A DNA stretch of 64,000 nucleotides, taken from contig NZ_KB235922.1 in assembly GCF_000332195.1 (NCBI RefSeq), forward strand, positions 372,001-436,000, given 5' to 3'. Under the pieces are notes generated by a model. It searched no databases and was not told the origin of the DNA. It saw only the letters and a list, made by a program, of their open reading frames with translations. This DNA is from Pleurocapsa sp. PCC 7319 (GTDB taxonomy: Bacteria; Cyanobacteriota; Cyanobacteriia; Cyanobacteriales; Xenococcaceae). The position numbers were made by a program, and so were the translations under genes. Below are positions 22,284-43,472 of this stretch, piece by piece (positions within the stretch are counted from its first letter, which is position 1; every line of letters begins with the position of its first letter).

Positions 22284-23540
22284 CTAGATTCCTAATGGAC
22301 TTTGAAATTGCTCATAGTAATTAGTAAATCTTTGGTTTACTAGCCCAGCATCGAGACCAAACTGCTCTGAAGAATAACGATGAACTCCATGTTTATGCTG
22401 AGGATTCCTAGATAACCATTGCTTCATATTTGTCTCTACTTGAATATTCCAATCGTAGTCAAAGAAATTATAAATCTGACGAGCAGTACCAACCGGATCG
22501 TGAATCAAGCTTCGATAACTGACATCATAAAAGCATTTCGAGTTCATTTGCTGACGAACTTCCATAGCTCGCTCGATACCATTTACTAGGCGATTCAACC
22601 AGTATTCTCCTAACTCTTCTAGATCGGTTTCATTGGTGAAGACATTTCGCACGATCGCCACCAAACTACACATTGAAGGCATTACTTCAAAAGGAGCTCG
22701 ATGTGTCTGTACTATACAAGCGTCTGGAAATACTTCTAGTAGCGCATCAAGATGGAACAAATGAACGGGTTCCTTAAGAACCCAGCGTCCGCTCCAATGC
22801 CAGCCCAAAAGTTGCAATTGCTGTCGAAAATACTGATACTGTGCCACCATATCTTGAGTTTTGAGCCAGGCTCCGTAAGATGGAACACAAAATCGAAACT
22901 CAAACAGCATTGACGCAAACGAATGCTCAAATAACTGGTTGCCCTCTTCTGGAGCTTGGGCATCCAAAGCATGGGCTATTGCTAAGGCAGGGGCTAAGTT
23001 TTGCTGGCGTTGAATAAATTTACGAGCTATCTCTATGCGAGCATCGGTTTCAGCATTATACTTCTCTGGAGGCGGACAGGGATTATACAACTCCCAAAGA
23101 TGCAACCAACGACAATTTGGATCTTGAGCTAAAAGCCGATGTAAGAAGGTCGTTCCTGTTCGCGGCAATCCGGTAATAAATAGCGGTTTCCGTATTGGAA
23201 CTTGTAGAATTTCAGGATGATGCTTGAAAGTATCTTGAATTTTTAGCCGATTTACCAGCAGTTGCAGAAAGTATTTTCGCAGTATCAACCGTCCCATAAA
23301 GTTGAGATTAGCCTCTCTTTCTAGAGATTTTAGGAGAATTTGCAATGCTACCCGAAAATCTTCATTACCCCAGTCACTTAACTGAGATTGGTTTTGAGCA
23401 GTAGACAACAGTGAAGTTTCACTGAGATCTGCGAGAGGTACTCCGATTTGTCTTAATTTAGTCCCTCCCCAATCAAGCCAATTTGTCCACTGAGGTCGGG
23501 TATTCTTTTCTATAGTTGCTTGAGTAGAATTAGATGTCAT
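22284..23540 (-). CDS. Sulfotransferase 1 of the biosynthetic cluster
   Basis: A 418-residue PAPS-dependent sulfotransferase of the Sulfotransfer_3 type. The 5'-phosphosulfate loop is ITGLPRTGTTFLHRLLAQDP and the 3'-phosphate site is in VQTHRAPFEVMPSM. The expected acceptors are hydroxyl groups of a small molecule; the actual substrate is unknown. It is the last gene of the long minus-strand cluster, 16 bases after the MFS transporter, which suggests co-transcription and a role in sulfating the cluster product before or at export. Tail region includes the usual QWLSRNPQHKHG motif. Confidence 0.85.
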   Translation of the reverse strand: MTSNSTQATIEKNTRPQWTNWLDWGGTKLRQIGVPLADLSETSLLSTAQNQSQLSDWGNEDFRVALQILLKSLEREANLNFMGRLILRKYFLQLLVNRLKIQDTFKHHPEILQVPIRKPLFITGLPRTGTTFLHRLLAQDPNCRWLHLWELYNPCPPPEKYNAETDARIEIARKFIQRQQNLAPALAIAHALDAQAPEEGNQLFEHSFASMLFEFRFCVPSYGAWLKTQDMVAQYQYFRQQLQLLGWHWSGRWVLKEPVHLFHLDALLEVFPDACIVQTHRAPFEVMPSMCSLVAIVRNVFTNETDLEELGEYWLNRLVNGIERAMEVRQQMNSKCFYDVSYRSLIHDPVGTARQIYNFFDYDWNIQVETNMKQWLSRNPQHKHGVHRYSSEQFGLDAGLVNQRFTNYYEQFQSPLGI

Positions 23541-23556
23541 AGTAATTCAAACCTGC

Positions 23557-24843
23557 TTATTTTTTGATGGGATAAAAAGCAAATGCTACTGCTGCCCCCA
23601 AGGCAAATAGTCCTGCCACCGGAAAGGCTATTTGTACTCCCCAAGGCTGTGCGGGAGTTTTGCCCAACATTAATAAGGCGCCTGCCAGCAGAGAACCGAT
23701 TCCCACACTTATCTCTACCAATAAACCTCGGGCACCAAAATAAATAGCTTCCCGGCGCATTCCAAATTGTTTGGTATCGCGATCAATGACATCGGGTAAC
23801 ATGGCATTAGGTAAAATAAAAAAACTTGCAGCCCCTAAATTGCTAATTGCCAGCAGTGCTAACCAAGGTAGAAGTGCTGAGCCCACCAAAAATGGCCAAA
23901 TTGCTACAGCTAAAAGTCCACCACCTAACCACACCATCGAAAGCTGGAAAGTATAACTTTTACCCCAACGTCGAGCCAAAGGAATTACCAGAGCAAATCC
24001 GCTCATTGTCCCGCCCAGAACCAAACCATTGACAACTGAGCCAAAACTAATATCTTTATTTAAGAGTGCTACCGCCAAAAAAGTAGAACTTACCGACAAT
24101 ATACTAATCGTAATCCAAGCTGAGGCAATCCCTGTCAGATAAATGCGGAAGCAATCATTTTGCCATCCAGATTTAAAAGACTTCCAGAAGGGAAGGTACT
24201 CTGGCTTAGATACAGTGACATCCTCGTGCACAATTAAAGGCATCAGCATGGTCACAAAACTGGCGCTTCCAATCATAATTGCCATCCTTGGAAAGCCATA
24301 CTGCTGGGTTAACAAAGGGGCTGCGATTCCTCCGAAGGCACTTCCCAATAGACCAAAAGCCGCCATTAAAGAAGAAAGATTAATCCTTTGTTTGACCGTT
24401 GGGGCTAGTACAGGTAGCAAAGCTAAATAGGGAATTTGATAAGCTGCTAGTGCTAAATAAAATATACACAGCAATATTCCTAGATAAACTACATTGCCAA
24501 TGCTGTTAGAGCCAAGGGGAGGAATAAATAGTAAGATAAAGCTGAGAGTTAAAGGCAAGACTGCGATAGCCAAGAAGGGTCGCCGCTTTCCCCAACGGCT
24601 CTGAAACCGATCTGAGCAATATCCGATCGCTGGTTGAGTTAAGGCACCGATAATACGACTGACAAACATGGCTATGCCTACGATGAGCGATGATACCAAA
24701 AATGGCAGATGACTAGAATTCGGTATTCCCGGATCGTAACGATAGATCAACATGGTTAACAAGGCTCTGTTGAGCGAAAGCAAACCAAAAAAACCAGTAA
24801 TGTATGGCAGCCATTTTGTAACCAATATGGAAATTTTTATCAT
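23557..24843 (-). CDS. MFS transporter (GPH-like)
   Basis: A 428-residue polytopic membrane protein with about 12 hydrophobic spans. The loop GYCSDRFQSRWGKRRPFLAIA has the D-R-x-G-[KR]-R-R signature of the major facilitator superfamily, and the layout resembles the glycoside-pentoside-hexuronide group. A second copy of this type of loop occurs at DVIDRDTKQFGMRREA. The likely job is export of the cluster product, or uptake of a precursor. Its ATG overlaps the stop of the 35-residue microprotein (TAATG), so the two are translationally coupled. The second sulfotransferase follows 16 bases later. Confidence 0.85.
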   Translation of the reverse strand: MIKISILVTKWLPYITGFFGLLSLNRALLTMLIYRYDPGIPNSSHLPFLVSSLIVGIAMFVSRIIGALTQPAIGYCSDRFQSRWGKRRPFLAIAVLPLTLSFILLFIPPLGSNSIGNVVYLGILLCIFYLALAAYQIPYLALLPVLAPTVKQRINLSSLMAAFGLLGSAFGGIAAPLLTQQYGFPRMAIMIGSASFVTMLMPLIVHEDVTVSKPEYLPFWKSFKSGWQNDCFRIYLTGIASAWITISILSVSSTFLAVALLNKDISFGSVVNGLVLGGTMSGFALVIPLARRWGKSYTFQLSMVWLGGGLLAVAIWPFLVGSALLPWLALLAISNLGAASFFILPNAMLPDVIDRDTKQFGMRREAIYFGARGLLVEISVGIGSLLAGALLMLGKTPAQPWGVQIAFPVAGLFALGAAVAFAFYPIKK

Positions 24844-24950
24844 TAATTTAAAATGTTGATAGGCGATCCAATGACCGAGTCCTGAGCTGGACTAGCAAAG
24901 CTGGGTTTAAAAATTTCTAACAGAAAATCTAGTTGTTCTTCAGATATCAT
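24843..24950 (-). CDS. 35-residue microprotein homologous to the propeller protein N terminus
   Basis: Reads MISEEQLDFLLEIFKPSF, then ASPAQDSVIGSPINILN, then TAA. By eye 20 of 35 positions match residues 9-43 of the protein at 20208, including FASP, VIGSP and the final LN. The stop codon overlaps the MFS start codon. It could be a real coupled microprotein, a conserved N-terminal module used alone (for example an export or docking signal), or the stump of a decayed RTX gene. Conservation of the reading frame and the tight coupling favour something functional. Confidence 0.65.
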   Translation of the reverse strand: MISEEQLDFLLEIFKPSFASPAQDSVIGSPINILN

Positions 24951-24977
24951 GTAGGCTGTTAAATTTTCTTTATCACT

Positions 24978-26102
24978 TTACACAGCTGCTTTTGGCACTT
25001 GGTTTTTATCGAAACCGTATTCTTCAAAAACAAATGACAGGTCATTGGCAATTTGCTCCTGGGTTAAGTCAAACTCCTCAAGAGACATAACCTTATGTTG
25101 GCGTTTATAGTTTTTCTGAATTTGAGCTTGGTTTTCGACTACCTGTCGCAACTGATCGCTGGGTTTAATTCCAGTAAAAGCTAGGATTTTGGCAAACGCA
25201 TTGGGTAGGGATGAGCGCAATTCATCGTATTTCAAGATTAAGAGCCTATCTTCGGGAATTACTCTCTCTTGCCGCAGCTTGGAGAAGTAGCGATAAAGCT
25301 CGATGTCATAGCGATATCTTCTGTCTAGGTACAGCTTCAATTTATTTGGGGAAATCTTTTGAGTTATCTTTCGATGTTTGAGGGTATTGTAATTGAGAGA
25401 AAGGTGGGAAGAAATCGTAGCATAAGGCGATCGCACTAAATAAATAAACTTAGCATCGGGAAAAGTCTCTCGCAGAGTCTTAAGACGGTGAATCGAAAAA
25501 TGTAAATGAGCGATTACCTGTTCATTTTGAGTGTAATATATTTGGCGCTGAAGACAGCTTTTGAGAAATCTAATCGAGAAGCAACGACGAGATTCTGGTT
25601 GTTTGTCGTGAAAGCGCAGCTCTGGATATTCACGAGTATCAAAACCTAAGGGAGATAAGGCAGTAACGAATTGAGTATCAAGTTGATGAAAGAATAAGAA
25701 TTCATCGTGTTCTACTTGATCGAGAGCAAGTTCATGACCTACTTGAGCCGGAACGAGGATTCCCAGGTCTTTTTTGATTAAGTAATCAATTAGTGGTTTT
25801 AATAAAGTGCGTGCTGTAAGTGCTGGAAACAGAAGCTGCCACGTCTCGAAAGCTGCAAACTCCTTGGTCTGAGTTAATAAGCAATGTAAAAAGCTAGTTC
25901 CACTGCGGGGATTTCCAATAATGAAAATTGGTTCCTTGACTTGGACTTGGCGATATTGAGGAAAGAATATCCTATCTAAAAAAAGGGTTAGGTGTGTGAA
26001 AGCAAGAAAAAGCGGAAACAGAAATAACCATTGTAAAAAAGTTGTTTTCACTCCAAAATTTTTCCAGCAAGACTTCAAAATCGAAAAGTAAACTTTCAGC
26101 AT
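24978..26102 (-). CDS. Sulfotransferase 2 of the biosynthetic cluster
   Basis: A 374-residue sulfotransferase, only distantly similar to the one at 22284. The PAPS loop is IIGNPRSGTSFLHCLLTQ and the 3'-phosphate site is in IYLVRSPYATISSHLSL. The N terminus has a hydrophobic segment (FLQWLFLFPLFLAFTHLTLFL) that may anchor it to the membrane, fitting a lipid-like acceptor. It lies 33 bases after the TauE/SafE gene and 27 bases before the microprotein. Its presence beside a second sulfotransferase suggests two sulfation sites or a paired reaction. Substrate is not known. Confidence 0.85.
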   Translation of the reverse strand: MLKVYFSILKSCWKNFGVKTTFLQWLFLFPLFLAFTHLTLFLDRIFFPQYRQVQVKEPIFIIGNPRSGTSFLHCLLTQTKEFAAFETWQLLFPALTARTLLKPLIDYLIKKDLGILVPAQVGHELALDQVEHDEFLFFHQLDTQFVTALSPLGFDTREYPELRFHDKQPESRRCFSIRFLKSCLQRQIYYTQNEQVIAHLHFSIHRLKTLRETFPDAKFIYLVRSPYATISSHLSLNYNTLKHRKITQKISPNKLKLYLDRRYRYDIELYRYFSKLRQERVIPEDRLLILKYDELRSSLPNAFAKILAFTGIKPSDQLRQVVENQAQIQKNYKRQHKVMSLEEFDLTQEQIANDLSFVFEEYGFDKNQVPKAAV

Positions 26103-26135
26103 TTTTTAGTTTTAAAATTCTCAACATTGCAACTT

Positions 26136-27185
26136 TCATTTGTGAGATTCGGATACGGCTGTTTCTCGAATGATTATGTCTTTGACATTTTGTCTGTTGG
26201 ATAGCAATCGCTGATAGCCCGAGTAATTCATTACTGAAAAAAAGCAAAAACCAACTAAAAATGTTGCTGCACTAAAGAGCATTAAGTTATGAGTTAGGGG
26301 CAAGATCAGCAAAGCAGCGCCAAATTGGAGAATGATGGTAGTTAGTAAAAGATAGATAACAAAAAGATTTGAGCGATTAGCGATAAATTTCGCACCTAGG
26401 GGGGCGCCGATAACCACTACAGGCACAGATACCCACCAATAGCTCCAAGTCTCAGGCAAAACGGGCGTTGAGCTGAAGAAGACACGCCAACCAAAACCAA
26501 CTAAGGCATTAACTGCCATTAGTACAACTGAGGTTGGAGTAGCAATTTTCTCATCAAGGCGGAATGCTAGTACTAGCAGCGAAAAGGTCAAGATATCCAG
26601 TCCGCTACCAGTGATGCCACTTACCATTCCTCCCACTAAACCGACAGCAATCAGCACCAGCATATCCTGTCTTTGAAAGCCGGAAATTCGCTTGTTAAGA
26701 ACCCGTTGGCGATCGCGGTTCATCGAAAGCAGTGCTACACCAAAGCTTAACCATAGGGTCACAAAAAATAGCTTAGTTACCACAGGGGGCAGAAGCGGAG
26801 CGATATATTCGAGGCTGAACATGATTCCTAAGGCTCCCCCTAGGCTGGAAAACAGCAAAGCACGGGGTTCGATAGCAATGCGATTAACAAAAATCGCGAT
26901 CGTAGCGGAAGTCATCCCCACCGACTGAATCATCAAAGAGAAATCTCTAGCTACCGCTGGCTCAATATCAAACATCAAAGTCATGACCGGAAATGCCACC
27001 GCACCACCCCCTTCGCTAGTTGAACCAGCGATAAAAGAGCCGACAGCCATGGTGACAGACATAAACCAATTATCGACAAACAAATGCCATTGGTTTCTGG
27101 CAACCATTAACAGCAGCCAAAATGACCAAACGAACAAGGGAACCAGAAGATCTAGCTTCTTAAATTTAAATTTCAATACACTCAT
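26136..27185 (-). CDS. TauE/SafE family permease
   Basis: A 349-residue membrane protein with about eight to nine spans and the family repeat: GSFIAGSTSEGGGAVAFPVMTLMF in the first half and VGGMVSGITGSGLDILTFSLLV in the second. The family moves sulfite, sulfonates, sulfoacetate or other organosulfur anions. In this place, between two flavin monooxygenases and two sulfotransferases, an export or import role tied to sulfur metabolism or the sulfated product is plausible, but it is inference. A 113-base gap separates it from the monooxygenase upstream. Confidence 0.85.
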   Translation of the reverse strand: MSVLKFKFKKLDLLVPLFVWSFWLLLMVARNQWHLFVDNWFMSVTMAVGSFIAGSTSEGGGAVAFPVMTLMFDIEPAVARDFSLMIQSVGMTSATIAIFVNRIAIEPRALLFSSLGGALGIMFSLEYIAPLLPPVVTKLFFVTLWLSFGVALLSMNRDRQRVLNKRISGFQRQDMLVLIAVGLVGGMVSGITGSGLDILTFSLLVLAFRLDEKIATPTSVVLMAVNALVGFGWRVFFSSTPVLPETWSYWWVSVPVVVIGAPLGAKFIANRSNLFVIYLLLTTIILQFGAALLILPLTHNLMLFSAATFLVGFCFFSVMNYSGYQRLLSNRQNVKDIIIRETAVSESHK

Positions 27186-27298
27186 AAAATTGACAGAGAT
27201 CTGACTATTGATAGAAGTCTCGGGAAAATAAAATGTTTAGCGAATTTACGTTGTCATAGCTTCTATTTTCAAGACAGAGGTTTATAGAAGGAGTGCAG

Positions 27299-28906
27299 TC
27301 AAAGACTTAATTCGGGATTTAGAAAGTTTAAGCCTCTTAAAGAGGAGATAACTTTCAAAATGGGATACCCAATCAGGGCGCTTCCACCCCAAACTACTTG
27401 TAAAAACAAGAACAAAAATATTTCATGGGGGGTCTTGAGTTTCCAAATGTGCAGACCTTCACGTTCAATGACATCTAATGCTAATGGATTAGCATGGGGT
27501 CCACAGATGCGGAAGTGGGGGGCTGCAACACTTCCAAACAAAACACTCCAGAGCACGAGCGGTCGTTTGATTAATTTCCATAGAACAGGACGACAACCAA
27601 TTAACTCGGCCAACTCATACATAAATGGCACGTAGGAGACAATTCCCGTAATGCGATCGCTGACAAGAGGCTTTAACTCAGCAGATTTCTTGGCATCTTT
27701 TTCAATTGTTGCCTTCATCTGTGCGGTTGAAGGAAGAGATAATCTACCACTGGCAATTCCAGCAAAATAACGAGCTTGTAGTTCGATAATAGGAGGCATC
27801 GCACCTATGTTGGGACGGGCAAAGCCTATAAAACCAATATTGGGGAGGTCTAGATGAAAGATTTTTTTATAGAGCTGGCGCCAATCCCACCCCTCATTCT
27901 CTATTGGTAAAAAGGGGAATTTAACTTTGAAACCACTACAAAAGATAACTGTATCCGCCTTTACTTTGCTCCCATCGCTAAAGACGATCCCGTCTGGATT
28001 GAATTGGTGAATTCCAGATTTGAGAGCAACATTAGGTTTTGTAAGGGCCTGCATGAATACATCCGATTTAGTTATGAATTGTTTGTGATAGCTACCTCCA
28101 GATAAATCGATCAGTTTTTGTCTGATCTGCCAGGATTTATATTTACGGTTGATAAAAGTTAACAAGTGTTGAATCGCAGTTTCGATACGGTCGTAAAGTA
28201 CAGGTGGCAATTGATATGTGGTTCGGTGATGAAAGTAATCTCCGGGAAGAGTCATACGCTTGTCGAGTTTGGGCATAATAAACACTCCTCTTCTCAAACT
28301 AAGTGTCACCTTTGTCGCCACCTGAGAAAGTTCATTCACGAGATCGCCACCGCTTTCTCCACCGCCAACTACTACCACATGCTTACCGTGATAAGGGCTA
28401 TTGTCTTTGTAGGTCGATGAGTGAACAATTTTTCCCTGGAATTCTGACATATTCTCAATGGCAGGCAACTCCTTTTCTTCATTTAGTCCCGTACAAACTG
28501 CCACAGAGTCAACTTCGTATTCATCTACGGCATCAGGTTTGACCACGCAAACGATCCACTTGTCTCCTTTACGCGATACAGATTTGACCGAAGCATTATA
28601 GATTATGTGCTTTTCAAGATCGAAGTGACGAGTATAAGCCAAGAGATATTCAAGGTACTGTTCGTGCTTTAAGAAGTGAGGATAGCGATCGGGCATGGGA
28701 AAGTCAGAGAATGCAGTTATATACTTTGAGGAACTCAGTTCGGTATTGCGAAATACGCTGACCCCTTGCTTGCGGAACTTCCAGTTTCCACCGATATGAG
28801 GAGAGGACTCGAAGGCCACAACCTCCATCCCTTCTTCTAGGCAGGACTTAATTGTTACTAAACCAGCAAGTCCAGCCCCGATAACGGCAACTTTTTTCTT
28901 ATCCAT
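27299..28906 (-). CDS. Flavin-containing monooxygenase, copy 1
   Basis: Class B flavin monooxygenase of 535 residues. FAD motif VAVIGAGLAGLVTIKSC at the N terminus, NADPH motif VVVVGGGESGGDLVNEL around residue 180, and the FMO identifying motif FQGKIVHSSTY between them. A hydrophobic C-terminal segment (FLFLFLQVVWGGSALIGYPI) suggests membrane association, as in eukaryotic FMOs. Possible reactions are N- or S-oxygenation or Baeyer-Villiger oxidation of the cluster product. It is a tandem paralogue of the next gene upstream, with the same length and closely similar sequence from end to end. Confidence 0.88.
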   Translation of the reverse strand: MDKKKVAVIGAGLAGLVTIKSCLEEGMEVVAFESSPHIGGNWKFRKQGVSVFRNTELSSSKYITAFSDFPMPDRYPHFLKHEQYLEYLLAYTRHFDLEKHIIYNASVKSVSRKGDKWIVCVVKPDAVDEYEVDSVAVCTGLNEEKELPAIENMSEFQGKIVHSSTYKDNSPYHGKHVVVVGGGESGGDLVNELSQVATKVTLSLRRGVFIMPKLDKRMTLPGDYFHHRTTYQLPPVLYDRIETAIQHLLTFINRKYKSWQIRQKLIDLSGGSYHKQFITKSDVFMQALTKPNVALKSGIHQFNPDGIVFSDGSKVKADTVIFCSGFKVKFPFLPIENEGWDWRQLYKKIFHLDLPNIGFIGFARPNIGAMPPIIELQARYFAGIASGRLSLPSTAQMKATIEKDAKKSAELKPLVSDRITGIVSYVPFMYELAELIGCRPVLWKLIKRPLVLWSVLFGSVAAPHFRICGPHANPLALDVIEREGLHIWKLKTPHEIFLFLFLQVVWGGSALIGYPILKVISSLRGLNFLNPELSL

Positions 28907-28949
28907 AACTTTTTACCTAGACTAATAAAAATCTTGTCAATTAATTAAT

Positions 28950-30557
28950 TTAAAAATCTAACTGGGGTTCGAGCAATTTACAGCCTGGTAAGCGATAAAC
29001 CGCTTTAAAGAGGGGATAGCTGAGTATCCCACCAACGCCCCAAATTATTTGAAAAGCAAAAAACAAAAATTTTTCCTGAGGCGTTTTTAACTTTTGTAGG
29101 TGTAAGCCTTCCTGTGCGATAATCTCAAAGGCTTTGGGATCGGCATGAGGCCCACAAAGACGAAAATGAGGTGGTGCTACGGTACCAAACAAAACACTCC
29201 ACAGCACTAACGGCCTGTTCAAAAGCTGTTTCAAAATTGGGCGACAGCCAATTAGCCCCGCTAGTTCGTACATGTAAGGAACAAATGAGACGATTGAAGT
29301 AACTCGTTCGCAAACTAGTGGTTTCAGTTTGGCAGTTTCCCGAGCATCTCGTTTGATAACTGACTCCATCTCAGCAAGAGATGGCAGCGATAATCTGCCA
29401 CTAGCTACACCGGCAAAATAGCGCGACTGAAGCTCGGTAACGGGAGGGATAGCACCAATATTAGGACGTGCAAAGCCGATAAAACCGAGATTGGTTAGTT
29501 CAGGATGGAAGATATTTTTATATAGTTTGCGCCAATCCCATCCTCGACTCTCGATGGGGAGAAATGGGAAGAAAACCTTGAAGCCACTGGAGAAGATTAC
29601 AGCCTCTGCTTTGACTTTGCTACCATCGGCAAACACCACACCATCAGTGTCAAACCTTTGAATTGCTGGCTTGAGGAATACATGTGGTTGGGCAAGGGCT
29701 GTTAAGAAAACGTCTGACTTGGTAATAAATTGTTGGTGGTAACTTCCTCCAGATAGCTCAATCAACTTTTGCCGAATCTGCCAAGCTTTTTGTCGGCGGT
29801 TGATAAAGTTGAAAAGATTTTGGAATAGAGTTTCTATGCGATCGTAAATTGCTGGAGGGAAGTGGTAAGTAGAGCGGTGATGGAAATAATCTCCCGGTAG
29901 TGTCATTGTCTTGTCAAGTTTAGGCATGACAAATACACCCCTCCTCAAACTCAGTGTTACCTCTTTGGCAACTTGAGATATTTCATTCAGAATATCTCCT
30001 CCACTTTCACCACCACCGACAATGACAACATTTTGCTCTCGGTATGGGATATTGTCTTTATAGGCAGATGAATGAACAATTTTTCCCTGAAAATTCTCTT
30101 GATTGGGAATCGCTGGGAGATTACGCTTTTCATTTAAACCCGTACAAACTGCTACTGCATCGAATTCACACCTACTAACCGTACCACCATGAGAAACATT
30201 AAGCAGCCATTTTCCCTCTTGTCGTTGCATGCGAGTCACTGTTGCTTCAAATTTAATGTGCCGTTGCAAATCGAAATGGCGAGCATAATCTAGCAAATAA
30301 TCAAGATACTGTTCGTGCTTTAAAAAATGTGGGAAATTCTCTGGCATAGGAAAGTCAGAAAAGGCAGTTAGATACTTTGAGGAAGTTAATTCGGTATGCC
30401 GAAAGACGCTTACACCTCCCTCTTGGAAATGCCAGTTTCCCCCCAGCCGCTCGTTCTTCTCAAAGGCTATAACCTCCATTCCTTCCTCAAGACAAGACTT
30501 AATCGTTACTAAACCAGCAAGTCCAGCTCCGATGATGGCAACTTTCTTTTTTTCCAT
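28950..30557 (-). CDS. Flavin-containing monooxygenase, copy 2
   Basis: Paralogue of the downstream neighbour, also 535 residues, separated from it by 43 bases. FAD motif VAIIGAGLAGLVTIKSC, FMO motif FQGKIVHSSAY and NADPH motif VVIVGGGESGGDILNEI are all intact, and the C-terminal hydrophobic segment is present (FLFFAFQIIWGVGGILSYPL). Both copies look catalytically complete, so the duplication was probably kept for two oxidation steps or two positions. Divergence is spread along the whole length, so it is not a very recent copy. Confidence 0.88.
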   Translation of the reverse strand: MEKKKVAIIGAGLAGLVTIKSCLEEGMEVIAFEKNERLGGNWHFQEGGVSVFRHTELTSSKYLTAFSDFPMPENFPHFLKHEQYLDYLLDYARHFDLQRHIKFEATVTRMQRQEGKWLLNVSHGGTVSRCEFDAVAVCTGLNEKRNLPAIPNQENFQGKIVHSSAYKDNIPYREQNVVIVGGGESGGDILNEISQVAKEVTLSLRRGVFVMPKLDKTMTLPGDYFHHRSTYHFPPAIYDRIETLFQNLFNFINRRQKAWQIRQKLIELSGGSYHQQFITKSDVFLTALAQPHVFLKPAIQRFDTDGVVFADGSKVKAEAVIFSSGFKVFFPFLPIESRGWDWRKLYKNIFHPELTNLGFIGFARPNIGAIPPVTELQSRYFAGVASGRLSLPSLAEMESVIKRDARETAKLKPLVCERVTSIVSFVPYMYELAGLIGCRPILKQLLNRPLVLWSVLFGTVAPPHFRLCGPHADPKAFEIIAQEGLHLQKLKTPQEKFLFFAFQIIWGVGGILSYPLFKAVYRLPGCKLLEPQLDF

Positions 30558-30610
30558 AACTTCTTACCTAAACTGAAATTACCAAAACTACATCCCAACC
30601 ATGGCGATCG

Positions 30611-35021: not shown

Positions 35022-38000
35022 TTATTTAAGAATTAGAAGCTGCTGCAGCTCCTGAGCTATAGTTTGCAAGAGGTTCTGACCTTCAACATGCAGAAAGAAA
35101 TGATCTCCAGGAAACATTTTCAGTGTGAAATCTTGATTAGTTTGTTCGCGCCAGGCTGCCAAAGCTTCAGGACTAACTTTGCTATCTTGTTGACCGCCAA
35201 AGACAGAGATGGGAACGTTGAGGGGAGACTCATTAGCATAGAAGTAGGTCTCCAAAAGCGCAAAATCAGCTTTTAAAGCGGGGAGATACAGCTCCATCAA
35301 TTCGGCATCTTGCAAAACTTCATCTGGCGTCCCCTTGAGTTGTTTCAATTTCTCTTTGAACTTAGAGTCAGGCAGTCGATGAATCGGCGGCTCTAAATCT
35401 GGAACTTGGGGTGCTTGGCTACCAGAAACAAATAGGCAAACTGGACAGGGCAATTGTCGCCGGCGGAGTTCGCGAACAAGTTCAAAGCTCAAAATTGCCC
35501 CCACACTATGACCAAAAAAGGCAAAGGGAATGTCTAGGTGGGGACATAATAGTGGTGTTAAGGTTTCAATTAGAGGCTTCAACCGTTCCAGGGGAGTCTC
35601 TCCTAAGCGATTTTCTCTTCCTGGTAACTGAATCGGACAAACTTCGATCTCTGGGGGGAGAGCTTCCGACCAAGAATGGAAAATAGACGCACCCGCACCA
35701 GCATAAGGGAAACAGAATAGACGGAAGCAAGTTTGAGAATTTGATTCTAGAGGGTTAACCCAACGATTAGCTTGGGATCTAGAGCCTACAAGAGAATCAG
35801 CAGCATTGAGCTGTGGAATTTGTTTGGTCAGAGTTTGACCCTCAAGTAGCAAGAGAACTTGGGTGACAAACTGATCGATACTCAGACCAGCAAAATACTC
35901 GATTGGCACGACTATCCCTAAGTTGACCTCAATTCTTCTTCTTAAATCGGCAGCCATCAGGGAGTCAATTCCCAGCGTTGACAAAGGTTGTTCCCAGTTC
36001 AGTTTTGGTGTAGGTATTCCCGAAACTTTGGTTAATAATTGACTTAAATATGACACTAACAAACTGCGACGTTCTCTAGGTTCGGCAGTCAAGAGTTGAT
36101 ACAAGTCTTGTTGATAAATCTGTTGTAATGTTTGGCGGTTGACTTGTCTGACCGATAATTCTTCTAACTGAGCAACCGTAGTACCATGCTCATCGAACAG
36201 GCGTAAATTGACTGTCTGGAACTGTTGATTTAAACCTTGAGGAAGTATTTGAGCCTTAATCCACAGGGAGCTGCTAGGACTTTGATACACTTGTAGCGAT
36301 TTTAATCCAACTGGTAAATAAACATCTTCCTGACCTGCTTGAGGTAAGAAGCTACCTAAAATTTGAAAGCAGGTATCCATTAACACTGGATGTAATTGAT
36401 AGTTGGCGACGTCTGTAACTAAGGTTTCGGGCAACCGAATCTGAGCTACAGCTTGTCCTTTCTGCATCCAAATCTTTTCCACAGCTTGGAAACTAGAACC
36501 ATATTTTATTTGTCGTTGAAGACAATTTTGGTAGTGGGTTTCACCAGATATCTCCTCGATATATTGTGCTTGCAGAACAGCTAGGTCAACTTCAGCAGAT
36601 TGGGGAGTTGATGTTTTCAGCCTAATTTTTCCAGAGGCATGAATTGTCCAAGTTGGCTCGGTAGTTTCTGACTCGGATGTAAGGCTAAAAATTTGCCAGG
36701 AAAATAATTCAGGTGATTCAGGTAACAAAATCGATTGAAGGGTTTTACTTTCAGCTTCTGATAAAATTAGCTCTTCCTGGAATGTGACTTCCTCAACTGA
36801 GAAATTGTCCGCTGGGCAAATAGTCTTTCCAGCAGCTAAAGCCATCTCTAAGTAACCTGATGCGGGGAAAATTACAGTTTGGCAAATGTGATGATCTGAT
36901 AAATAAGCTGGAGATTCCTGACTAATCTGAGATTCAAACTGAATTTCTTTGAGCGCAGAATGAAGCCTTTGACCAAGGAGGGGGTGAAAATTATTCTGGA
37001 TGGAAACTTTCTTTCTCGACCATTTAGCTATATTGGAAGCTGCGAAATCAGTCCCCTCAATCCAATATCGCTGTCTTTGCCAAGGATAAGTTGGCAGAGA
37101 TAGGCGTTGACGGCAATAAGCCCGATCAAAGCCCGACCAGTTTACTGAGAGTCCCCGTAAGTATAAAGTGGTTAAACTCTGGAGCATCTGTTCCCAATCT
37201 TCTTGTTCTGGATGCAGACTGGGTAACAAAGCTAAGTTTTTTGTCTCTAGCTTATTTAATAGACAATAACGACCCATGCCCAGGAGGGTCGGTTTTGGTC
37301 CGATTTCTAGAAATACTTCATAACCCTGCTCAACCAAGTTATCCATGCTGGCATAGAATCTGACAGGCTGTAGTATATGACTGCACCAATACTCGGAAGT
37401 AGCAACTTCAGTAGTAACTTGCTTTCCTGTAACATTGGAAATCAAGCTTAATTGAGGTGGAGAATAAGTTACTTCCTCAGCTACCCGCCTAAAGGCAGAC
37501 AGCATTGGCTCCATCATGGGAGAGTGGAAAGCATGGGAAACCTGCAACTTTTTCGTCTTGACCTCTTTGATTTCTAAGTCTGAAATCACTGCCTGTACCA
37601 AGTTCCGGTGACCAGAAATGACTGTAAGTTCGGGTCCATTAATGGCGGCGATCGCAACATGAGGATGATAGGGCTGGATCATGGCTCGCACCTTGCTCTC
37701 CTCAGCAAACACTGCCACCATTTCCCCCTCTTGAGGTAATTCCTGCATTAGACGTGCTCGGGCAGCAATCAGCTTCAAGCCATCCTCTAAACTAAATACC
37801 CCTGCTACGCAGGCTGCGACATATTCCCCGACGCTATGACCCATGACGGCAGTAGGTTCGACTCCCCATGACTGCCATAAAGTAGCTAAAGCATATTCAA
37901 GAGCAAATAAGGCAGGTTGGGTATAGGCAGTATCGTCTAGAGTGTCAAGTTTTGAGGGTGTAATTTGAAGATTGTCTACTAATGTAAAACTGTTTGAATC

Positions 38001-39803
38001 GGAGTTAAGTACTTGCGATTTGCCATTACTTTTTTCAGTTTCTCTGGCTTCAGCAGAATGGGGATATAAAACTTCTATTAAGGGGGTATTTAAATATGGT
38101 GCGAGAATCTGATTACATCGATCAATTTCAGCGCGGAAAATGGGTTCAGTTTCATAAAGTTGTTGTCCCATGCCTACATACTGGGAACCCTGACCTGTAA
38201 ATAAAAAGGCTATTTGCTCCCTCTTCTTGCCTTTTATTTGACCGCTCGCTAATCCGACAGCTTTCCTGCCACTGGCAAAAATATCTAACTGTTCGCCTAA
38301 CTGCTCCCTAGATTCAGACACGATAGCTAAACGATATTCAAAATGCGATCGCCCTGTATTAGCAGTGAAGCAAATATCTGCTAGGGAGTTTTCAGAATGG
38401 GACTGAAGATAAGTTTGATACCTACCAGCTAGCGCTTTTAAAGCTAGCTCACTTTTTGCCGACAAGGTAAGAAGATGTAAAGGTCGTTCAGTATTATTAG
38501 GTAACGCATTTGGTATAGGTGCTTCTTCGACAATGACATGACAATTAGTACCACCAAACCCAAACGCACTGACCCCAGCCAAACGACTTCCAGAGTAATT
38601 CCATGACTGGCGCTCAGTAGGAATAGAAAAAGTGGTTTTTTTCAAAGAAATGTAAGGATTGAGCTGCTGAAAGTGCAAGTTGGGGGGAATTTCCTGATGT
38701 TGCAGCGAGAGTACCACCTTAATTAGACCAGCAACCCCAGCAGCAGCTTCTAAATGACCTATATTGGTCTTGACCGAACCTAAATAGCAGGGCTGATCTG
38801 GTTCTCGGTATTTCATTAACACTGTTTTGAGAGATTTAACCTCAATGGGATCGCCTAAAGCAGTTCCTGTACCATGAGCTTCAACATAACTAATTTGCGC
38901 TGGCTCCACCTCGGCGTTTTTCAAAGCTTGGCGAATTACTGTCTGTTGAGAAGGTCCGTTAGGAGCGGTAATACCATTACTCTGACCATCCTGATTTACT
39001 GCTGTGCCTCGAATAATTGCCTGAATCCGATCGCCATCCCTCTGGGCATCTGAGAGACGCTTGAGCACCACTATTCCGCATCCCTCTCCTCGAACATAAC
39101 CGTCAGCCTTGGCATCAAAAGTCTTGCATCGTCCATCAGCGGCCATCATTCGAGCTTGAGAGAAAATTACGTTTAGCTCTGGCGATAAAACTAAATTGAC
39201 TCCACCGACCAAGCACAGATTAGACTCTTTACTCCTTAAACTCTGGCAGGCCAAATGAACGCTAACCAGAGAAGAAGAACAAGCAGTCTCGATCGCCAGA
39301 CTGGGTCCTCGCAGATTCAGTAAGTACGATAGGCGATTGGCGGCAAGGCTGAAAGTAGTACCAGTGCCATCATAGGCACTTAAAAGCGAGAGATCATTAA
39401 CCCCCTTAAACAGAAAGCGATCGTAGCTAATCGAGGCGATCGACACAAACACCCCTGTCTGGCTGCCAGATAACTTATTTGGAGCTATGCCAGCATTTTC
39501 CAGTGCTTCCCACCCTACTTCCATGAATAGCCTCTGCTGAGGATCCATTCGCTCCGCTTCGCGGGGAGAAATGCCAAAAAATCCTGGATCGAATTGCTCT
39601 ACATCTTCAAGAAAGCCGCCCCAGCGAGTATTCATCTTTCCCGATGTTCCTGGTTCTGGGTCGTATAAAGCATCGACATCCCATCTTTCTGGTGGTACTT
39701 CGGTAATGGCATCACCCCCCTCTCGCAAAAGATGCCAGAAGGCTTCAGGATTATTAGCTTGGGGAAAACGACAGCCAATGCCGATAATTGCAATAGGTTC
39801 CAT
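35022..39803 (-). CDS. Type I PKS: KS-AT-DH-ACP-TE, no KR
   Basis: A single 1593-residue module. KS: residues 1-430 with Cys about 174 (TACSSSLVS) and His in VEAHGTGTALGD and NIGHLEAAAG. AT: about 530-850 with GHSVGEYVAA near 655 and HAFHSP near 759, predicting malonyl-CoA. DH: about 935-1215 with His near 970 (DHHICQTVIFP, where the usual Gly is Gln) and Asp near 1141 (HPVLMDTC). ACP: Ser near 1280 (LGIDSLMA). TE: about 1365-1590 with GHSVG near 1432 and a distal His in GDHFFLHVEG; the TE is of the type II-like alpha/beta fold. No KR, ER or MT is present between DH and ACP, so the DH has no beta-hydroxyl to act on within this module unless a KR acts in trans or the DH is idle. Confidence 0.92.
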   Translation of the reverse strand: MEPIAIIGIGCRFPQANNPEAFWHLLREGGDAITEVPPERWDVDALYDPEPGTSGKMNTRWGGFLEDVEQFDPGFFGISPREAERMDPQQRLFMEVGWEALENAGIAPNKLSGSQTGVFVSIASISYDRFLFKGVNDLSLLSAYDGTGTTFSLAANRLSYLLNLRGPSLAIETACSSSLVSVHLACQSLRSKESNLCLVGGVNLVLSPELNVIFSQARMMAADGRCKTFDAKADGYVRGEGCGIVVLKRLSDAQRDGDRIQAIIRGTAVNQDGQSNGITAPNGPSQQTVIRQALKNAEVEPAQISYVEAHGTGTALGDPIEVKSLKTVLMKYREPDQPCYLGSVKTNIGHLEAAAGVAGLIKVVLSLQHQEIPPNLHFQQLNPYISLKKTTFSIPTERQSWNYSGSRLAGVSAFGFGGTNCHVIVEEAPIPNALPNNTERPLHLLTLSAKSELALKALAGRYQTYLQSHSENSLADICFTANTGRSHFEYRLAIVSESREQLGEQLDIFASGRKAVGLASGQIKGKKREQIAFLFTGQGSQYVGMGQQLYETEPIFRAEIDRCNQILAPYLNTPLIEVLYPHSAEARETEKSNGKSQVLNSDSNSFTLVDNLQITPSKLDTLDDTAYTQPALFALEYALATLWQSWGVEPTAVMGHSVGEYVAACVAGVFSLEDGLKLIAARARLMQELPQEGEMVAVFAEESKVRAMIQPYHPHVAIAAINGPELTVISGHRNLVQAVISDLEIKEVKTKKLQVSHAFHSPMMEPMLSAFRRVAEEVTYSPPQLSLISNVTGKQVTTEVATSEYWCSHILQPVRFYASMDNLVEQGYEVFLEIGPKPTLLGMGRYCLLNKLETKNLALLPSLHPEQEDWEQMLQSLTTLYLRGLSVNWSGFDRAYCRQRLSLPTYPWQRQRYWIEGTDFAASNIAKWSRKKVSIQNNFHPLLGQRLHSALKEIQFESQISQESPAYLSDHHICQTVIFPASGYLEMALAAGKTICPADNFSVEEVTFQEELILSEAESKTLQSILLPESPELFSWQIFSLTSESETTEPTWTIHASGKIRLKTSTPQSAEVDLAVLQAQYIEEISGETHYQNCLQRQIKYGSSFQAVEKIWMQKGQAVAQIRLPETLVTDVANYQLHPVLMDTCFQILGSFLPQAGQEDVYLPVGLKSLQVYQSPSSSLWIKAQILPQGLNQQFQTVNLRLFDEHGTTVAQLEELSVRQVNRQTLQQIYQQDLYQLLTAEPRERRSLLVSYLSQLLTKVSGIPTPKLNWEQPLSTLGIDSLMAADLRRRIEVNLGIVVPIEYFAGLSIDQFVTQVLLLLEGQTLTKQIPQLNAADSLVGSRSQANRWVNPLESNSQTCFRLFCFPYAGAGASIFHSWSEALPPEIEVCPIQLPGRENRLGETPLERLKPLIETLTPLLCPHLDIPFAFFGHSVGAILSFELVRELRRRQLPCPVCLFVSGSQAPQVPDLEPPIHRLPDSKFKEKLKQLKGTPDEVLQDAELMELYLPALKADFALLETYFYANESPLNVPISVFGGQQDSKVSPEALAAWREQTNQDFTLKMFPGDHFFLHVEGQNLLQTIAQELQQLLILK

Positions 39804-39851
39804 TGATAATTGCGCTGAGTTATTTCTAGTTATTCCTATCGGGATTTGGTT

Positions 39852-41192
39852 TTAGTCCTGACTACAAAATCTGGAAAATCGCTTAAAGGTTCTGATATTG
39901 TTTTGAATCGCTTTGTGAATTGAACCACCCGAAGCCATGGCACGCATTTCACGATTAATAGGCCACAAATAGTCAAGATTACCTACAAACCGACGTTGCT
40001 CTTCTAAAAGACTTTGGTGATTTTTCGCTGCTAAGTGAAAACTTTCCTGTTCGTGACATAAACACTGCTCCAGCCAATGGAGTGCTTCTCGCTCAGACAT
40101 ACCGAATATAGGAGCTTGGAGCAATCTATATATTAGTTCCATCAAAGAAATATCGTCTTGAAAATAGCGATGAGGAAATGCCCCGGAAAGATGTGCCAGA
40201 GTTCCGCTTTGAATAAAATAGACTGCTAGATTAACGACGAACTTCTCATAAGCCGTTGGTGGCGAAAAGTCCTTATACATATCCCGAGAAAGTGTCTGAG
40301 ATATTGTCGTGTGAAAAGACTCGTCTAAAAAATGATAATGAGATACTGCTGTTGGCTCAGGGATTGATTCTCCTTTTTTCTGCTGCTTCTTGTAATATTT
40401 GAAGATCGGATGCTCCATGTTCTTCAGAGTCAGATTGGACATCATCCGTAAGACATAGTACTCGCAAGCCAAGAACGGAGAACCTCCCCCCCAGTTAAAA
40501 AGAAAGAAACGTTGTAGAGAGGATGGTACATTTCGCCCCATCACACCAGTCGTCCGCTTTTGACCAATGAATCCTTCCTTTGCTTCGACTTCCTGTAAGT
40601 GCCGAGAATAAAATTGCTTTTTACTTTTATTCATCGTCTGGCTCAATTTACGCAGGGCATAATATTGAAAAGTTGCCCAAGAATTTTGCCCCAAAGTCAA
40701 TTGGTAGGAGTGCCATTTGAGCATCGCTTTTAGTGTATCCCTCCCCATCAGAGTCTTGGCAGTAGTTAAACCGATCTTCCGAAAGGTATGAATGTGGGCA
40801 TATTCCTGCTGAGTCTCTAACTCTAGTTCTTGGGCAATGGTTTCGTAACCACCAAGGGAGGCAAAAATGCTTGCCGTAGACTGATTATTAATTAGAGTTT
40901 CGGTTTCGGTATCAGCAACATAATTGTAGTTGGCAAACCAATGCAGGTGATTGAGAGCCATTCTTTGAGTAGAAGAAGCAGCATCGTAGAGTGGAGTGCC
41001 ATAAAGCAGTGATTGCTCTGGCACGCTCCAATAGCGATCGCTATTAGAATGATAGTCAAAGTTTTTCGCCAGCTCCTCCATTTTTTCGGTATAGTCAGAA
41101 CTGGTGTTACTGCGATAAGTGGTTTCAATAAGTTTGAAATGTTTCTTGCCTGTCTGTTTATGGTTTTCTAATGCGGAGGTAATATCTACCAT
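39852..41192 (-). CDS. AurF/CylC-like dimetal oxygenase or halogenase
   Basis: A 446-residue ferritin-like protein. Putative dimetal ligands follow the AurF spacing: Glu96 or Glu98, Glu130-x2-His133 (EYAHIH), Glu244 (ACEYYVL), and His287-x3-Glu291-x2-His294 (HFLDESFH). A further ExxH is at 383-386 (ESFH). In cyanobacteria, proteins of this type that sit directly between an FAAL/ACP pair and a PKS are CylC-type halogenases, which chlorinate unactivated carbons of acyl chains on the ACP (cylindrocyclophane, columbamide, bartoloside pathways). The FAAL-ACP-this gene-PKS order here is the same. Halogenation is inferred from context; the sequence alone would also allow an N-oxygenase or another oxidation. 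Confidence 0.75.
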   Translation of the reverse strand: MVDITSALENHKQTGKKHFKLIETTYRSNTSSDYTEKMEELAKNFDYHSNSDRYWSVPEQSLLYGTPLYDAASSTQRMALNHLHWFANYNYVADTETETLINNQSTASIFASLGGYETIAQELELETQQEYAHIHTFRKIGLTTAKTLMGRDTLKAMLKWHSYQLTLGQNSWATFQYYALRKLSQTMNKSKKQFYSRHLQEVEAKEGFIGQKRTTGVMGRNVPSSLQRFFLFNWGGGSPFLACEYYVLRMMSNLTLKNMEHPIFKYYKKQQKKGESIPEPTAVSHYHFLDESFHTTISQTLSRDMYKDFSPPTAYEKFVVNLAVYFIQSGTLAHLSGAFPHRYFQDDISLMELIYRLLQAPIFGMSEREALHWLEQCLCHEQESFHLAAKNHQSLLEEQRRFVGNLDYLWPINREMRAMASGGSIHKAIQNNIRTFKRFSRFCSQD

Positions 41193-41221
41193 GATGTTCT
41201 CCTTGTGATTTTTCCCATCTC

Positions 41222-41530
41222 CTAAGGATGATTACATTCCAATTCCTCAGCTAAGTGAGTAACCAAAGCTTCAATTGTCGGATAATCGTAAAGTAGAGTA
41301 GGGTCAATATCCTGTCCGAGCCAAATTTCCAGGTCCCCTGTCAGGTCGATTGCTGCCGAAGAATCCAGACCATAGCGATCAAAGGGAGTAACATCATCAA
41401 TTTGACTAGAATCCACTTGCAAAAGTCGAGCTAAATAGGAGATTATCCAGGCTTGAATCTCCGATTTAGTTGGCAGCTTCTGTAATGATGTTTTCCCTTT
41501 CGACTCAACTTGAAAACTCTTAATTTCCAT
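41222..41530 (-). CDS. Acyl carrier protein
   Basis: A 102-residue discrete ACP. Phosphopantetheine Ser57 is in YGLDSSAAIDLTGDLE, followed by a helix-rich C terminus with LLYDYPTIEALVTHLAEEL. It lies 29 bases upstream of the dimetal enzyme and after the FAAL, the usual arrangement in which the FAAL loads a fatty acid on the ACP and a CylC-type enzyme acts on the tethered chain. The N-terminal 20 residues are an extension not found in FabF-type AcpP. Confidence 0.92.
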   Translation of the reverse strand: MEIKSFQVESKGKTSLQKLPTKSEIQAWIISYLARLLQVDSSQIDDVTPFDRYGLDSSAAIDLTGDLEIWLGQDIDPTLLYDYPTIEALVTHLAEELECNHP

Positions 41531-41642
41531 TCTTTAGACGTCAAATATAGTTCAATGTAATTTTTATTAAGTACTAGTAATCCGAGACTCAGACATCATC
41601 AATCTGAGCAATCAATCCGATGCTCCAAAATAGTCGGAAGTT

Positions 41643-43472
41643 TCAAAGTTTTTGCAGTTTCTGTAAAACCGACTCCACTTCAGTCTGGAGATGCAAAAAT
41701 TTTACTTTCCCCTGAGGGTTTATACTCCAATCCTCAACAACATTCAAACTGCCACTGAGAAATCCAGCCCGACAAGCATGACGTTGAATCTTGCCACTTG
41801 AAGTTTTAGGAATGCTTCCGGTTTTTACCAAAACTATCGCATAGACTTGTAAGCCATGTTCTGCTGTCACCGCCTGACGGATACTCTCTACTACTGCATT
41901 CACCTTCAGCTTACGTAGGTAGCTTCGCTCGATCTCCTGTACTATTACTAATCGCGCTGCACTATTGACATCTACTGTAAAAGCTGCTCCACAACTAGGT
42001 CGCAGTGCTGGATGACTATTCTGTACAGTCAGTTCGATATCTTGAGGATAATGGTTTTGTCCTCGAACGATAATCACATCTTTGATTCGTCCGGTAACAA
42101 ATAACTCCCCATCCTGCAAAAATCCTAAGTCTCCTGTGCGCAGAAACGGTCCCTCACCCGTATTTGCTATGTATGCATTAAAAGTCTGTTCAGTTTCAGC
42201 TGGGCGATTCCAATAACCCTTAGCTACATTTGAACCTGATACCCAAATCTCTCCTATGTTTCCTGTTGGACAGAGAGTTAAAGTTTCAGGATTGACAATC
42301 GAGATTTTTTGGTTCAACCATGTCTGACCGCAACCCACAATTGTCTGAACCTGTTCATCATTCTCATTAGTAGCTGTAACTACCCGATTTTTCTCTAAAG
42401 CAGACTTTTCCACTTTCTGTATGACAGGCAATGCTGTTTTTACTCCTCCAGAGATAAATAAAGCTGTTTCTGCCATACCATAACAAGGATAAAATGCCTC
42501 CCGACGAAAGCCACAAGGTTCAAAAGTAGCACTAAATTGCTCCAAAGTATGGGCATGAACAGTTTCAGCTCCGTTAAAAGCAATCTCCCAGCTACTGAGA
42601 TCGAGGCTTTCAATCTGTTCGGGAGTAATTTTGCGAACGCACAGATCGTAAGCAAAGTTAGGACCTCCACTAGTAGTTGCTCGATAGCGAGAAATCGCCT
42701 GTAGCCAACGAAAAGGTCTCTGAAGAAAATCTACTGGGGACATTAAAAAGGAGGGAATTCCCAAGTACATTGGTTGTAGAACATTCCCAATTAATCCCAT
42801 GTCGTGGAATAAGGGCAACCAACCAACAAAGATTGTTTTCTCGGTATGCTGGTAAGCGACCTTGACCATTTCCTCGTTATATAGCAAATTACCATGACTC
42901 AACATCACTCCTTTTGGCTTACCTGTAGAGCCAGAGGTATATTGAAGAAAAGCAAGAGTATCAATGTCTACTTTAGGTTGTTGCCAAATGCTTGCGTAGT
43001 CACTGTCTAGATCGTCGGTAGTTAGCCAGCTTATTGCTGCTAATTCTGGGCTAAGGCTCAAGCGCTCTTCCATCTTATCCATTAGGGACTTAGTAGTCAG
43101 AGCAAAATTAGCTTGAGAATCTTCCATAATTGACAGTAACCGCGATAAGTTTTGATTGCGTCGCGGTGGGTAAGCGGGAACAGCTACTACCCCAGCATAT
43201 AAACAACCAAAAAAGGCAGCAATAAATTCTAGACCTGGCGGATAAAGCAACAAGGCTCGTTTACTAGTAGCTTCCATCGACTGGAGAGATGCTGCGATCG
43301 CTCTTGCCTGTCGATCTAGTGCAAAATAAGTTAGCCTATTTACTTCTTCACCATGCTGGAGAAAAGTATAAGTTGTATAGTCAGGCTGATTTTGCGCTCT
43401 ATAGCTTAGTAACTCTACTAAAGTCGAAAATTTGTGCTTGGTTTTGAGTGTGTTTCCAAGACAGTCAGTCAT
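41643..43472 (-). CDS. Fatty acyl-AMP ligase (FAAL)
   Basis: A 609-residue adenylate-forming enzyme. AMP-binding P-loop FLQYTSGSTGKPKGVMLSHG (about 166-185), VGWLPLFHDMGLIGNVLQP, ACYGMAETAL-type motif FYPCYGMAE, and the C-terminal RTGDLGFLQDGELFVTGR and IPKTSSGKIQRHACR. The FAAL group, as opposed to acyl-CoA ligases, contains a loop insertion in the C-terminal half, and the length fits. It activates a free fatty acid as AMP ester and hands it to the neighbouring ACP. It is the first gene of the minus-strand cluster; its promoter must lie in the 2.6-kb gene-free stretch upstream. Confidence 0.92.
   Translation of the reverse strand: MTDCLGNTLKTKHKFSTLVELLSYRAQNQPDYTTYTFLQHGEEVNRLTYFALDRQARAIAASLQSMEATSKRALLLYPPGLEFIAAFFGCLYAGVVAVPAYPPRRNQNLSRLLSIMEDSQANFALTTKSLMDKMEERLSLSPELAAISWLTTDDLDSDYASIWQQPKVDIDTLAFLQYTSGSTGKPKGVMLSHGNLLYNEEMVKVAYQHTEKTIFVGWLPLFHDMGLIGNVLQPMYLGIPSFLMSPVDFLQRPFRWLQAISRYRATTSGGPNFAYDLCVRKITPEQIESLDLSSWEIAFNGAETVHAHTLEQFSATFEPCGFRREAFYPCYGMAETALFISGGVKTALPVIQKVEKSALEKNRVVTATNENDEQVQTIVGCGQTWLNQKISIVNPETLTLCPTGNIGEIWVSGSNVAKGYWNRPAETEQTFNAYIANTGEGPFLRTGDLGFLQDGELFVTGRIKDVIIVRGQNHYPQDIELTVQNSHPALRPSCGAAFTVDVNSAARLVIVQEIERSYLRKLKVNAVVESIRQAVTAEHGLQVYAIVLVKTGSIPKTSSGKIQRHACRAGFLSGSLNVVEDWSINPQGKVKFLHLQTEVESVLQKLQKL

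Follow-up and report, generated by a model that had tools for sequence, protein, structure and literature searches.

A CylK homolog adjoins a predicted sulfated alkylresorcinol-type gene cluster in Pleurocapsa sp. PCC 7319

Organization of the gene cluster

The window analyzed here is a stretch of 64,000 nucleotides from the cyanobacterium Pleurocapsa sp. PCC 7319 (contig NZ_KB235922.1, positions 372,001 to 436,000, in a genome of 7,386,997 bases and 10 contigs), and it carries a cluster of 14 genes, all on the minus strand between positions 22284 and 43472 and separated by gaps of -14 to 134 bp, beside which a gene for a homolog of the alkylating enzyme CylK lies at 20208-22154 on the plus strand. 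A previous sequence-only reading had assigned the 14 genes to a pathway for a chlorinated, sulfated polyketide or phenolic lipid, and their strand, order and coordinates were confirmed by the positions of the open reading frames (ORFs). Pfam supported the broad family of every cluster protein except the CylC-like one, whose AurF match stays below the cut-off, and the expected catalytic motifs were found in the synthases, the P450 and the sulfotransferases, in agreement with the core and the tailoring families proposed earlier.

The core starts with a fatty acyl-AMP ligase (FAAL; 41643-43472), presumed to have a CylA-type role, which matches Pfam AMP-binding (6.5e-69), carries TSGSTG and YGMAE motifs and is 67% identical to the FAAL of a related Xenococcaceae locus (L034). 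It is followed by a discrete acyl carrier protein (ACP; 41222-41530; PP-binding, 3.4e-15; GLDS motif) and by a CylC-like dimetal-carboxylate enzyme, the presumed acyl-ACP halogenase (39852-41192; AurF, 2.2e-4). A type I polyketide synthase (PKS) module with the domain order KS-AT-DH-ACP-TE (35022-39803) has the KS residues C-H-H and a GHSVG motif in both AT and TE, and the Pfam scan gave no ketoreductase match in it. This module adjoins a type III PKS of the alkylresorcinol synthase class (33878-34999), which is homologous to CylI (8ysp; E 1e-159; 238 of 373 positions identical, 64%) and whose Cys140, His297 and Asn330 are invariant across the six rows aligned. CylI-type enzymes have been placed with type I PKS clusters (PMC8086630; this and the other papers cited by PMC number are drawn on through excerpts).

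The tailoring genes comprise a cytochrome P450 (32479-33861; p450, 3.4e-80; heme motif FGGGSRRCLG; 59% identity in the Hyella cluster described below), a SyrB2-like iron- and 2-oxoglutarate-dependent (Fe/2OG) enzyme of the PhyH family with an HxA motif, the presumed second halogenase (31194-32393), an ICMT-like methyltransferase (30611-31207; ICMT, 5.6e-27) and two tandem flavin monooxygenases, FMO2 (28950-30557; FMO-like, 1.7e-84; best solved relative the ancestral FMO5, E 3.5e-73) and FMO1 (27299-28906; 2.3e-83), which are identical at 359 of 535 positions without a gap. Two sulfotransferases, ST2 (24978-26102; Sulfotransfer_3, 1.2e-23; PRSGTS loop) and ST1 (22284-23540; Sulfotransfer_3, 8e-46; PRTGTT loop), and two transporters, of the TauE/SafE type (26136-27185; TauE, 6.6e-19) and of the MFS/GPH type (23557-24843; MFS_2, 3.6e-48), complete the set. 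The TauE and MFS proteins are 69-71% and 60% identical, respectively, to their counterparts in two related loci (L034 and L035); ST2 has homologs in the same two loci and in four Moorena loci, and ST1 in Hyella (34%) and in Calothrix NIES-4105 (49%). A 35-codon ORF (24843-24950) lies between the ST2 and MFS genes.

The CylK homolog

The CylK gene lies 129 bp beyond the cluster interval and is convergent with the cluster genes. The sequence-only reading had considered a CylK-type enzyme absent and, for that reason, a cyclophane not to be expected; the first statement is contradicted by this gene, and the second does not stand against the halide-activating Arg/Tyr pair of the encoded protein, the CylK genes within two related clusters and the probable remnant inside the operon. 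Four solved sequences matched the protein at E<=0.001, all of them CylK (best E 1.1e-105, 7fh6); the protein agrees with solved CylK at 226 of 551 aligned positions, and both domains, the N-terminal calcium-binding part and the beta-propeller, are present. No other protein of the genome matched it at E<=1e-60, and the same threshold yielded relatives in 32 of the 388 genomes sampled from the order, the own genome counted.

In the alignment with solved CylK, the halide-binding residues Arg105 and Tyr473 are retained in the window protein. Mutagenesis indicated that both are required for CylK, the milder Tyr473Phe exchange causing only a moderate drop in activity (PMC8916777). An alignment and a tree of 32 rows comprise the window protein, the solved CylK sequence and 30 homologs with a length of 420 amino acids or more; the tree omits fragments of 218-273 residues (L046, L047 and L049), and it takes the L034 and L035 genes from L158/L159 and L175 instead. 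Arg105 is conserved in 31 of 31 covering rows and Tyr473 in all 32. Position 440, whose Asp was termed highly conserved within the CylK subset studied in PMC8916777, is Glu in 22 rows, the window protein among them, and Asp in 10, so that Glu alone does not predict the reaction.

The CylK-like ORF within the operon

The 35-codon ORF at 24843-24950, on the minus strand, begins in the gap between the ST2 and MFS genes, and its stop codon and the MFS start share one base. It is the likeliest counterpart of a microprotein that had been listed earlier without coordinates, now with a homolog: its 35 residues align to residues 9-43 of the window CylK with a score of 108 (at most 43 across 500 shuffles), and its DNA is 74% identical over 105 nucleotides to 20232-20336, in inverted orientation. 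When the peptide was searched against six genomes, it matched only itself and CylK (E 8.6e-8), both in the genome of the window, and the N-terminal ends of the remaining CylK rows gave no clear match (scores up to 35). Third codon positions account for 17 of the 27 differences between the ORF and the CylK copy, with nonsynonymous and synonymous divergences (dN and dS) of 0.25 and 0.62, a pattern over few codons that suggests constraint on both copies during part of their history.

The ORF resembles the start of CylK and occupies, between ST2 and MFS, the exact position of CylK in two related clusters; it is therefore probably the remnant of a CylK gene formerly present there, of which only the start is left, although an ORF this short can stay open by chance. 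From these sequence comparisons we infer that the full-length CylK copy now stands at the cluster end and that the internal one was lost.

Candidate halogenases

The CylC-like protein carries an ExxH motif at residues 130-133 and HxxxExxH at 287-294, which we take to resemble the metal ligands of AurF. It is 47-51% identical to co-clustered homologs in L034, L036 and L037, and 47.5% identical over 99% of its length to a protein of a Stanieria sp. NIES-3757 plasmid whose gene adjoins a sulfotransferase and a P450. One CylC homolog has been reported in a P450/sulfotransferase cluster of Stanieria sp. (PMC8406957), and from that name the plasmid locus was taken to be the published one. This locus (L180, 11980-19112) also encodes a DevBCA-type exporter, and the plasmid is typed as conjugative, which offers a route by which such genes could move. 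The plasmid search with the CylC-like protein matched four records, including a Planktothrix plasmid in which the CylC homolog comes after FAAL and ACP genes; a profile search of the PDB gave nothing better than E 0.27. In a further genome of the window's genus (G531, L162), a CylC-CylK pair with Asp440 stands beside a 1586-residue ORF, apparently belonging to a different CylK pathway. AlphaFold models of the CylC-like protein (8 alignment rows; predicted local distance difference test score, pLDDT, 40.7) and of the SyrB2-like enzyme (2 rows; pLDDT 32.3) were too poor to be used.

Fe/2OG halogenases are recognized by HxA or HxG in place of HxD/E, together with a distal His. The SyrB2-like enzyme has HQA at residues 211-213, on the iron-ligand position of SyrB2, and a distal His318 (PDB SyrB2, E 6e-31), and HQA also occurs in its relatives from Hyella and from genome G376. 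Relatives at E<=1e-15 were found in 8 of 386 genomes sampled from the phylum, the own genome counted. A 49% relative in another genome (G155, L110) has HQE instead of HQA and constitutes a natural contrast between halogenase and hydroxylase types; the family thus probably takes in hydroxylases as well, which gives weight to the HxA state. In three further loci a FAAL stands beside a SyrB2-like enzyme and a type I PKS, with HQA in L115 and HQV in L116 and L177; the three represent another FAAL-linked Fe/2OG family, in which the Val that occupies the ligand position is unusual. A few Fe/2OG halogenases have been noted near CylK, also clustering with CylC (PMC8916777), and the combination of all three may therefore already have been seen in that work.

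Related loci

A genome scan with a type III PKS profile found 86 related loci, of which the 80 best were kept, 28 of them cyanobacterial. At E<=1e-30, relatives of the type III PKS occur in 10 of 386 genomes sampled from the phylum, the own genome counted. The counts over the 28 loci refer to flanks of up to 10 kb on contigs that are often shorter, so that each co-occurrence is a lower bound. The type I PKS directly precedes the type III PKS in 22 loci, and an ICMT-like gene directly follows it in 20. CylK homologs or fragments are present in 11, CylC in 5 and both in 5; ST2 was found in 6, TauE in 2, the P450 in 1 and the SyrB2-like enzyme in 1 (59% identical), with a 22% relative in one further locus.

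Two of these loci hold clusters related to that of the window. Hyella patelloides LEGE 07179 (L035, L175) has CylC-PKS1-PKS3-P450-PhyH-ICMT-FMO-TauE-ST2-CylK-MFS-ST1 and, at the contig end, a second CylK, and a Xenococcaceae metagenome-assembled genome (MAG; L034, L158-L159) has FAAL-ACP-CylC-CylC-PKS1-PKS3-ICMT-FMO-TauE-ST2-FAD monooxygenase-ST2-CylK-MFS followed by a second CylK-like gene (PKS1 and PKS3 being the type I and type III PKS). The second CylK-like genes that close both clusters (L158, 3961-7590; L175, 18660-20000) encode Glu440 and Arg374, the states of BrtB at both positions. L036 and L037 have a minimal core, FAAL-ACP-CylC-PKS1-PKS3-ICMT-CylK.

For the P450, SyrB2-like, FMO and TauE genes of the window, close relatives come from Hyella or the Xenococcaceae MAG; in the trees, the type III PKS is placed with Cylindrospermum and CylK with Moorena. 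These mosaic relationships suggest that pieces of the cluster were probably exchanged between lineages. Four Moorena loci (L045, L046, L047 and L049) have a type III PKS, an ICMT gene, an ST2-type sulfotransferase and a further gene that encodes an O-methyltransferase in the single copy scanned; in three of the four, an ATP-binding cassette (ABC) exporter is also present and a CylK fragment lies at the edge of the locus. The four loci possibly represent another family of sulfated resorcinols. Three genes of relatives (F0, F2 and F3) had been considered as a beta-branching cassette, a proposal rejected when Pfam identified one set of three as an ABC exporter.

Upstream of the FAAL gene, a 2.6-kb AT-rich stretch (43473-46043; GC 0.32 at 44-46 kb) contains no long ORF, and no Rfam match was obtained in it at E<=0.1. 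Beyond it, a sulfatase gene (46044-48086, plus strand; Pfam 3.5e-45) is divergent from the cluster with its two sulfotransferases; the protein has a C-terminal repeat region and a CSPTR motif, presumably of the formylglycine type. The sulfatase was set aside as a member of the system because neither of the two related genomes, G669 and G670, gave a match to it at E<=1e-15.

Proposed pathway and alternative explanations

Taken together, these results point, with a probability of roughly 0.55, to a cluster that spans 20208-43472, includes CylK and would make a sulfated alkylresorcinol-type product by cyclophane logic. The individual reactions, their order and the product are predicted from gene content, homology and motifs and from the conservation of this combination in Hyella. 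The FAAL would load a fatty acid onto the ACP, CylC would chlorinate an unactivated carbon of the chain, extension by one ketide would fall to the ketoreductase-less type I module, and further elongation and closure of the resorcinol to the CylI-like type III PKS. The CylK homolog would then hold the alkyl chloride through Arg105 and Tyr473 while a nucleophile displaces the chloride; the simplest nucleophile would be a resorcinol belonging to a second molecule, and the outcome a cyclophane-like macrocycle. The P450, the two FMOs and the ICMT-like enzyme would account for oxidation and methylation, the SyrB2-like enzyme may install a second, possibly retained, chlorine, the two sulfotransferases would cap hydroxyl groups, and the MFS and TauE proteins may transport the product or sulfur compounds. 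The alkylation model is supported by the fact that a CylK with both domains and the halide pair adjoins the cluster and that CylK is internal in two relatives.

It has been reported that CylC produces an alkyl chloride that is consumed by CylK (PMC8916777). Since CylK is present, the chlorine introduced by CylC may likewise serve as a leaving group and vanish, so that, of the chlorinated, sulfated product proposed earlier, a sulfated, chlorine-using alkylresorcinol stands as the best class, and chlorine in the final product is not assured, although the SyrB2-like enzyme could leave one there.

Several observations weigh against this pathway. The CylC-like protein reaches 20.9 bits against Pfam AurF (cut-off 29.6), and the Stanieria match and shared architecture tie it to the published CylC family through homologs rather than through a characterized CylC sequence. 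The SyrB2-like enzyme matches the TIGR01762 chlorinating enzyme family over its full length (E 1.6e-41) with 142.5 bits against a cut-off of 226.3. In the window CylK, the residues on the nucleophile side are altered (Asp440 to Glu, Glu374 to Asn and His391 to Tyr), and the second bromide site of CylK is not retained. The protein falls outside the nine-row clade (support 100/100) that contains solved CylK and has Asp440 in nine of nine rows; it groups instead with two Moorena homologs (100/98), and it is 46% identical (259/567) to the internal CylK of Hyella and unpaired with it in the tree. Its gene is on the strand opposite to the cluster genes, the type III PKS groups with that of Cylindrospermum NIES-4074 (98/94) and not with Hyella, and 23 of the 28 cyanobacterial loci show no CylC, and 17 no CylK, in the flanks fetched.

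The altered nucleophile side raises the question of whether the same pathway ends differently, the CylK homolog alkylating an oxygen (a phenol or a carboxylate), as BrtB does, to give a linear or macrocyclic ether or ester without a carbon-carbon cyclophane. Such an outcome, which we regard as possible but rather unlikely, is consistent with the Glu at 440 shared with BrtB, with the absence of the second bromide site and of Glu374 and with the intact halide-side Arg and Tyr. However, position 374 is Arg in BrtB and Asn in the window protein, a CylI-type resorcinol synthase would furnish the carbon nucleophile of CylK, and the 22 rows with Glu440 mostly have no assigned reaction, which makes this residue non-diagnostic. 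Because the pocket for the alkyl chloride is kept and the nucleophile side changed, a more speculative proposal is that a resorcinol chain halogenated by both CylC and the SyrB2-like enzyme might be closed by O-alkylation or alkylated twice, yielding a sulfated ether, ester or cross-linked macrocycle unseen among the cyclophanes.

It is improbable that the adjacent CylK gene is uninvolved and that the product is a linear phenolic lipid bearing chlorine and sulfate. The location of CylK on the other strand and beyond the operon, the length of only 35 residues of the CylK-like ORF within it and the chlorine that a SyrB2-like halogenase could leave in place would agree with this idea; against it, the full-length CylK, unique in the genome at the threshold given above, retains its catalytic halide pair, and two relatives keep CylK inside the cluster. 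A decaying or silent cluster without product, to which the reduction of one CylK-like copy to its start might point, is very improbable, since CylK and each of the 14 genes form a long reading frame, uninterrupted by stop codons, in which the expected motifs are found.

In the cluster, two presumed C-H halogenases of different mechanism occur together with two sulfotransferases and an alkylating enzyme of the CylK family. If the CylK homolog, according to the cyclophane-type pathway, acts on the CylC product, it would be a natural active-site variant, with Arg105 and Tyr473 kept and positions 374, 391 and 440 changed, for the choice between carbon and oxygen alkylation.

Comparison with known systems

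The SyrB2-like enzyme shares with SyrB2 and CytC3 the aligned HxA and distal His and a near full-length match to SyrB2, and differs from them in about 75 additional N-terminal residues and in lying outside a nonribosomal peptide synthetase setting. The predicted use of a halogenated intermediate by a CylK-family enzyme resembles the bartoloside pathway (BrtJ, BrtB), where position 440 is likewise Glu; in contrast, BrtB combines Glu440 with Arg374, a pair of which the window protein has the Glu together with an Asn, and bartoloside-like clusters contain the dialkylresorcinol enzymes DarA and DarB (PMC8406957) where the window has a CylI-type PKS. In the Stanieria sp. CylC cluster (Eusebio et al. 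2021, PMC8406957), too, the CylC homolog has a sulfotransferase and a P450 as neighbors, whereas no PKS, FAAL or carrier protein is among the 20 annotated features fetched for the Stanieria locus. In the open-licence literature searched, including the excerpted text of PMC8406957, no sulfated cyclophane or CylK-sulfotransferase product was described, and a chlorosulfolipid lead found no supporting paper there.

The cylindrocyclophane, carbamidocyclophane and merocyclophane clusters (cyl, cab and mer), compared through cluster descriptions (in part from PMC8086630), have, as does the window, FAAL and discrete ACP genes, CylC, a type I PKS adjoining a CylI-type PKS, and a two-domain CylK with Arg105 and Tyr473. 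The window cluster differs in having one type I PKS instead of two, in its additional sulfotransferases, SyrB2-like enzyme, FMO pair and TauE gene, and in Glu instead of Asp at position 440 of CylK.

Type III PKS clusters with CylC have been listed in the Pleurocapsales, with Hyella patelloides LEGE 07179 named (PMC8406957), and halogenase clusters have been named in Hyella disjuncta in a paper whose excerpted text does not mention CylC or cyclophanes (PMC8472315). The closest precedent is an orphan cluster of family CF-46, common to Pleurocapsa sp. PCC 7319 and Hyella patelloides LEGE 07179, with 13 syntenic genes; it includes a 3-oxoacyl synthase, a P450, methyl- and sulfotransferases, transporters and a single PKS module, which in PCC 7319 contains a dehydratase (Brito et al. 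2020, PMC7381351). The window cluster has a single PKS module with a DH domain and shares its gene order with the same Hyella strain, and it is very probably the published orphan; halogenase, CylC, cyclophane, type III and alkylresorcinol are unmentioned in the main text of that paper. The Hyella cluster differs from that of the window in having one FMO instead of two, a shorter PKS (1351 versus 1593 residues) and CylK inside the operon. The term uncharacterized used in the earlier reading therefore applies to the product; the cluster itself, whose tailoring set that reading could match with none, is very probably already in print.

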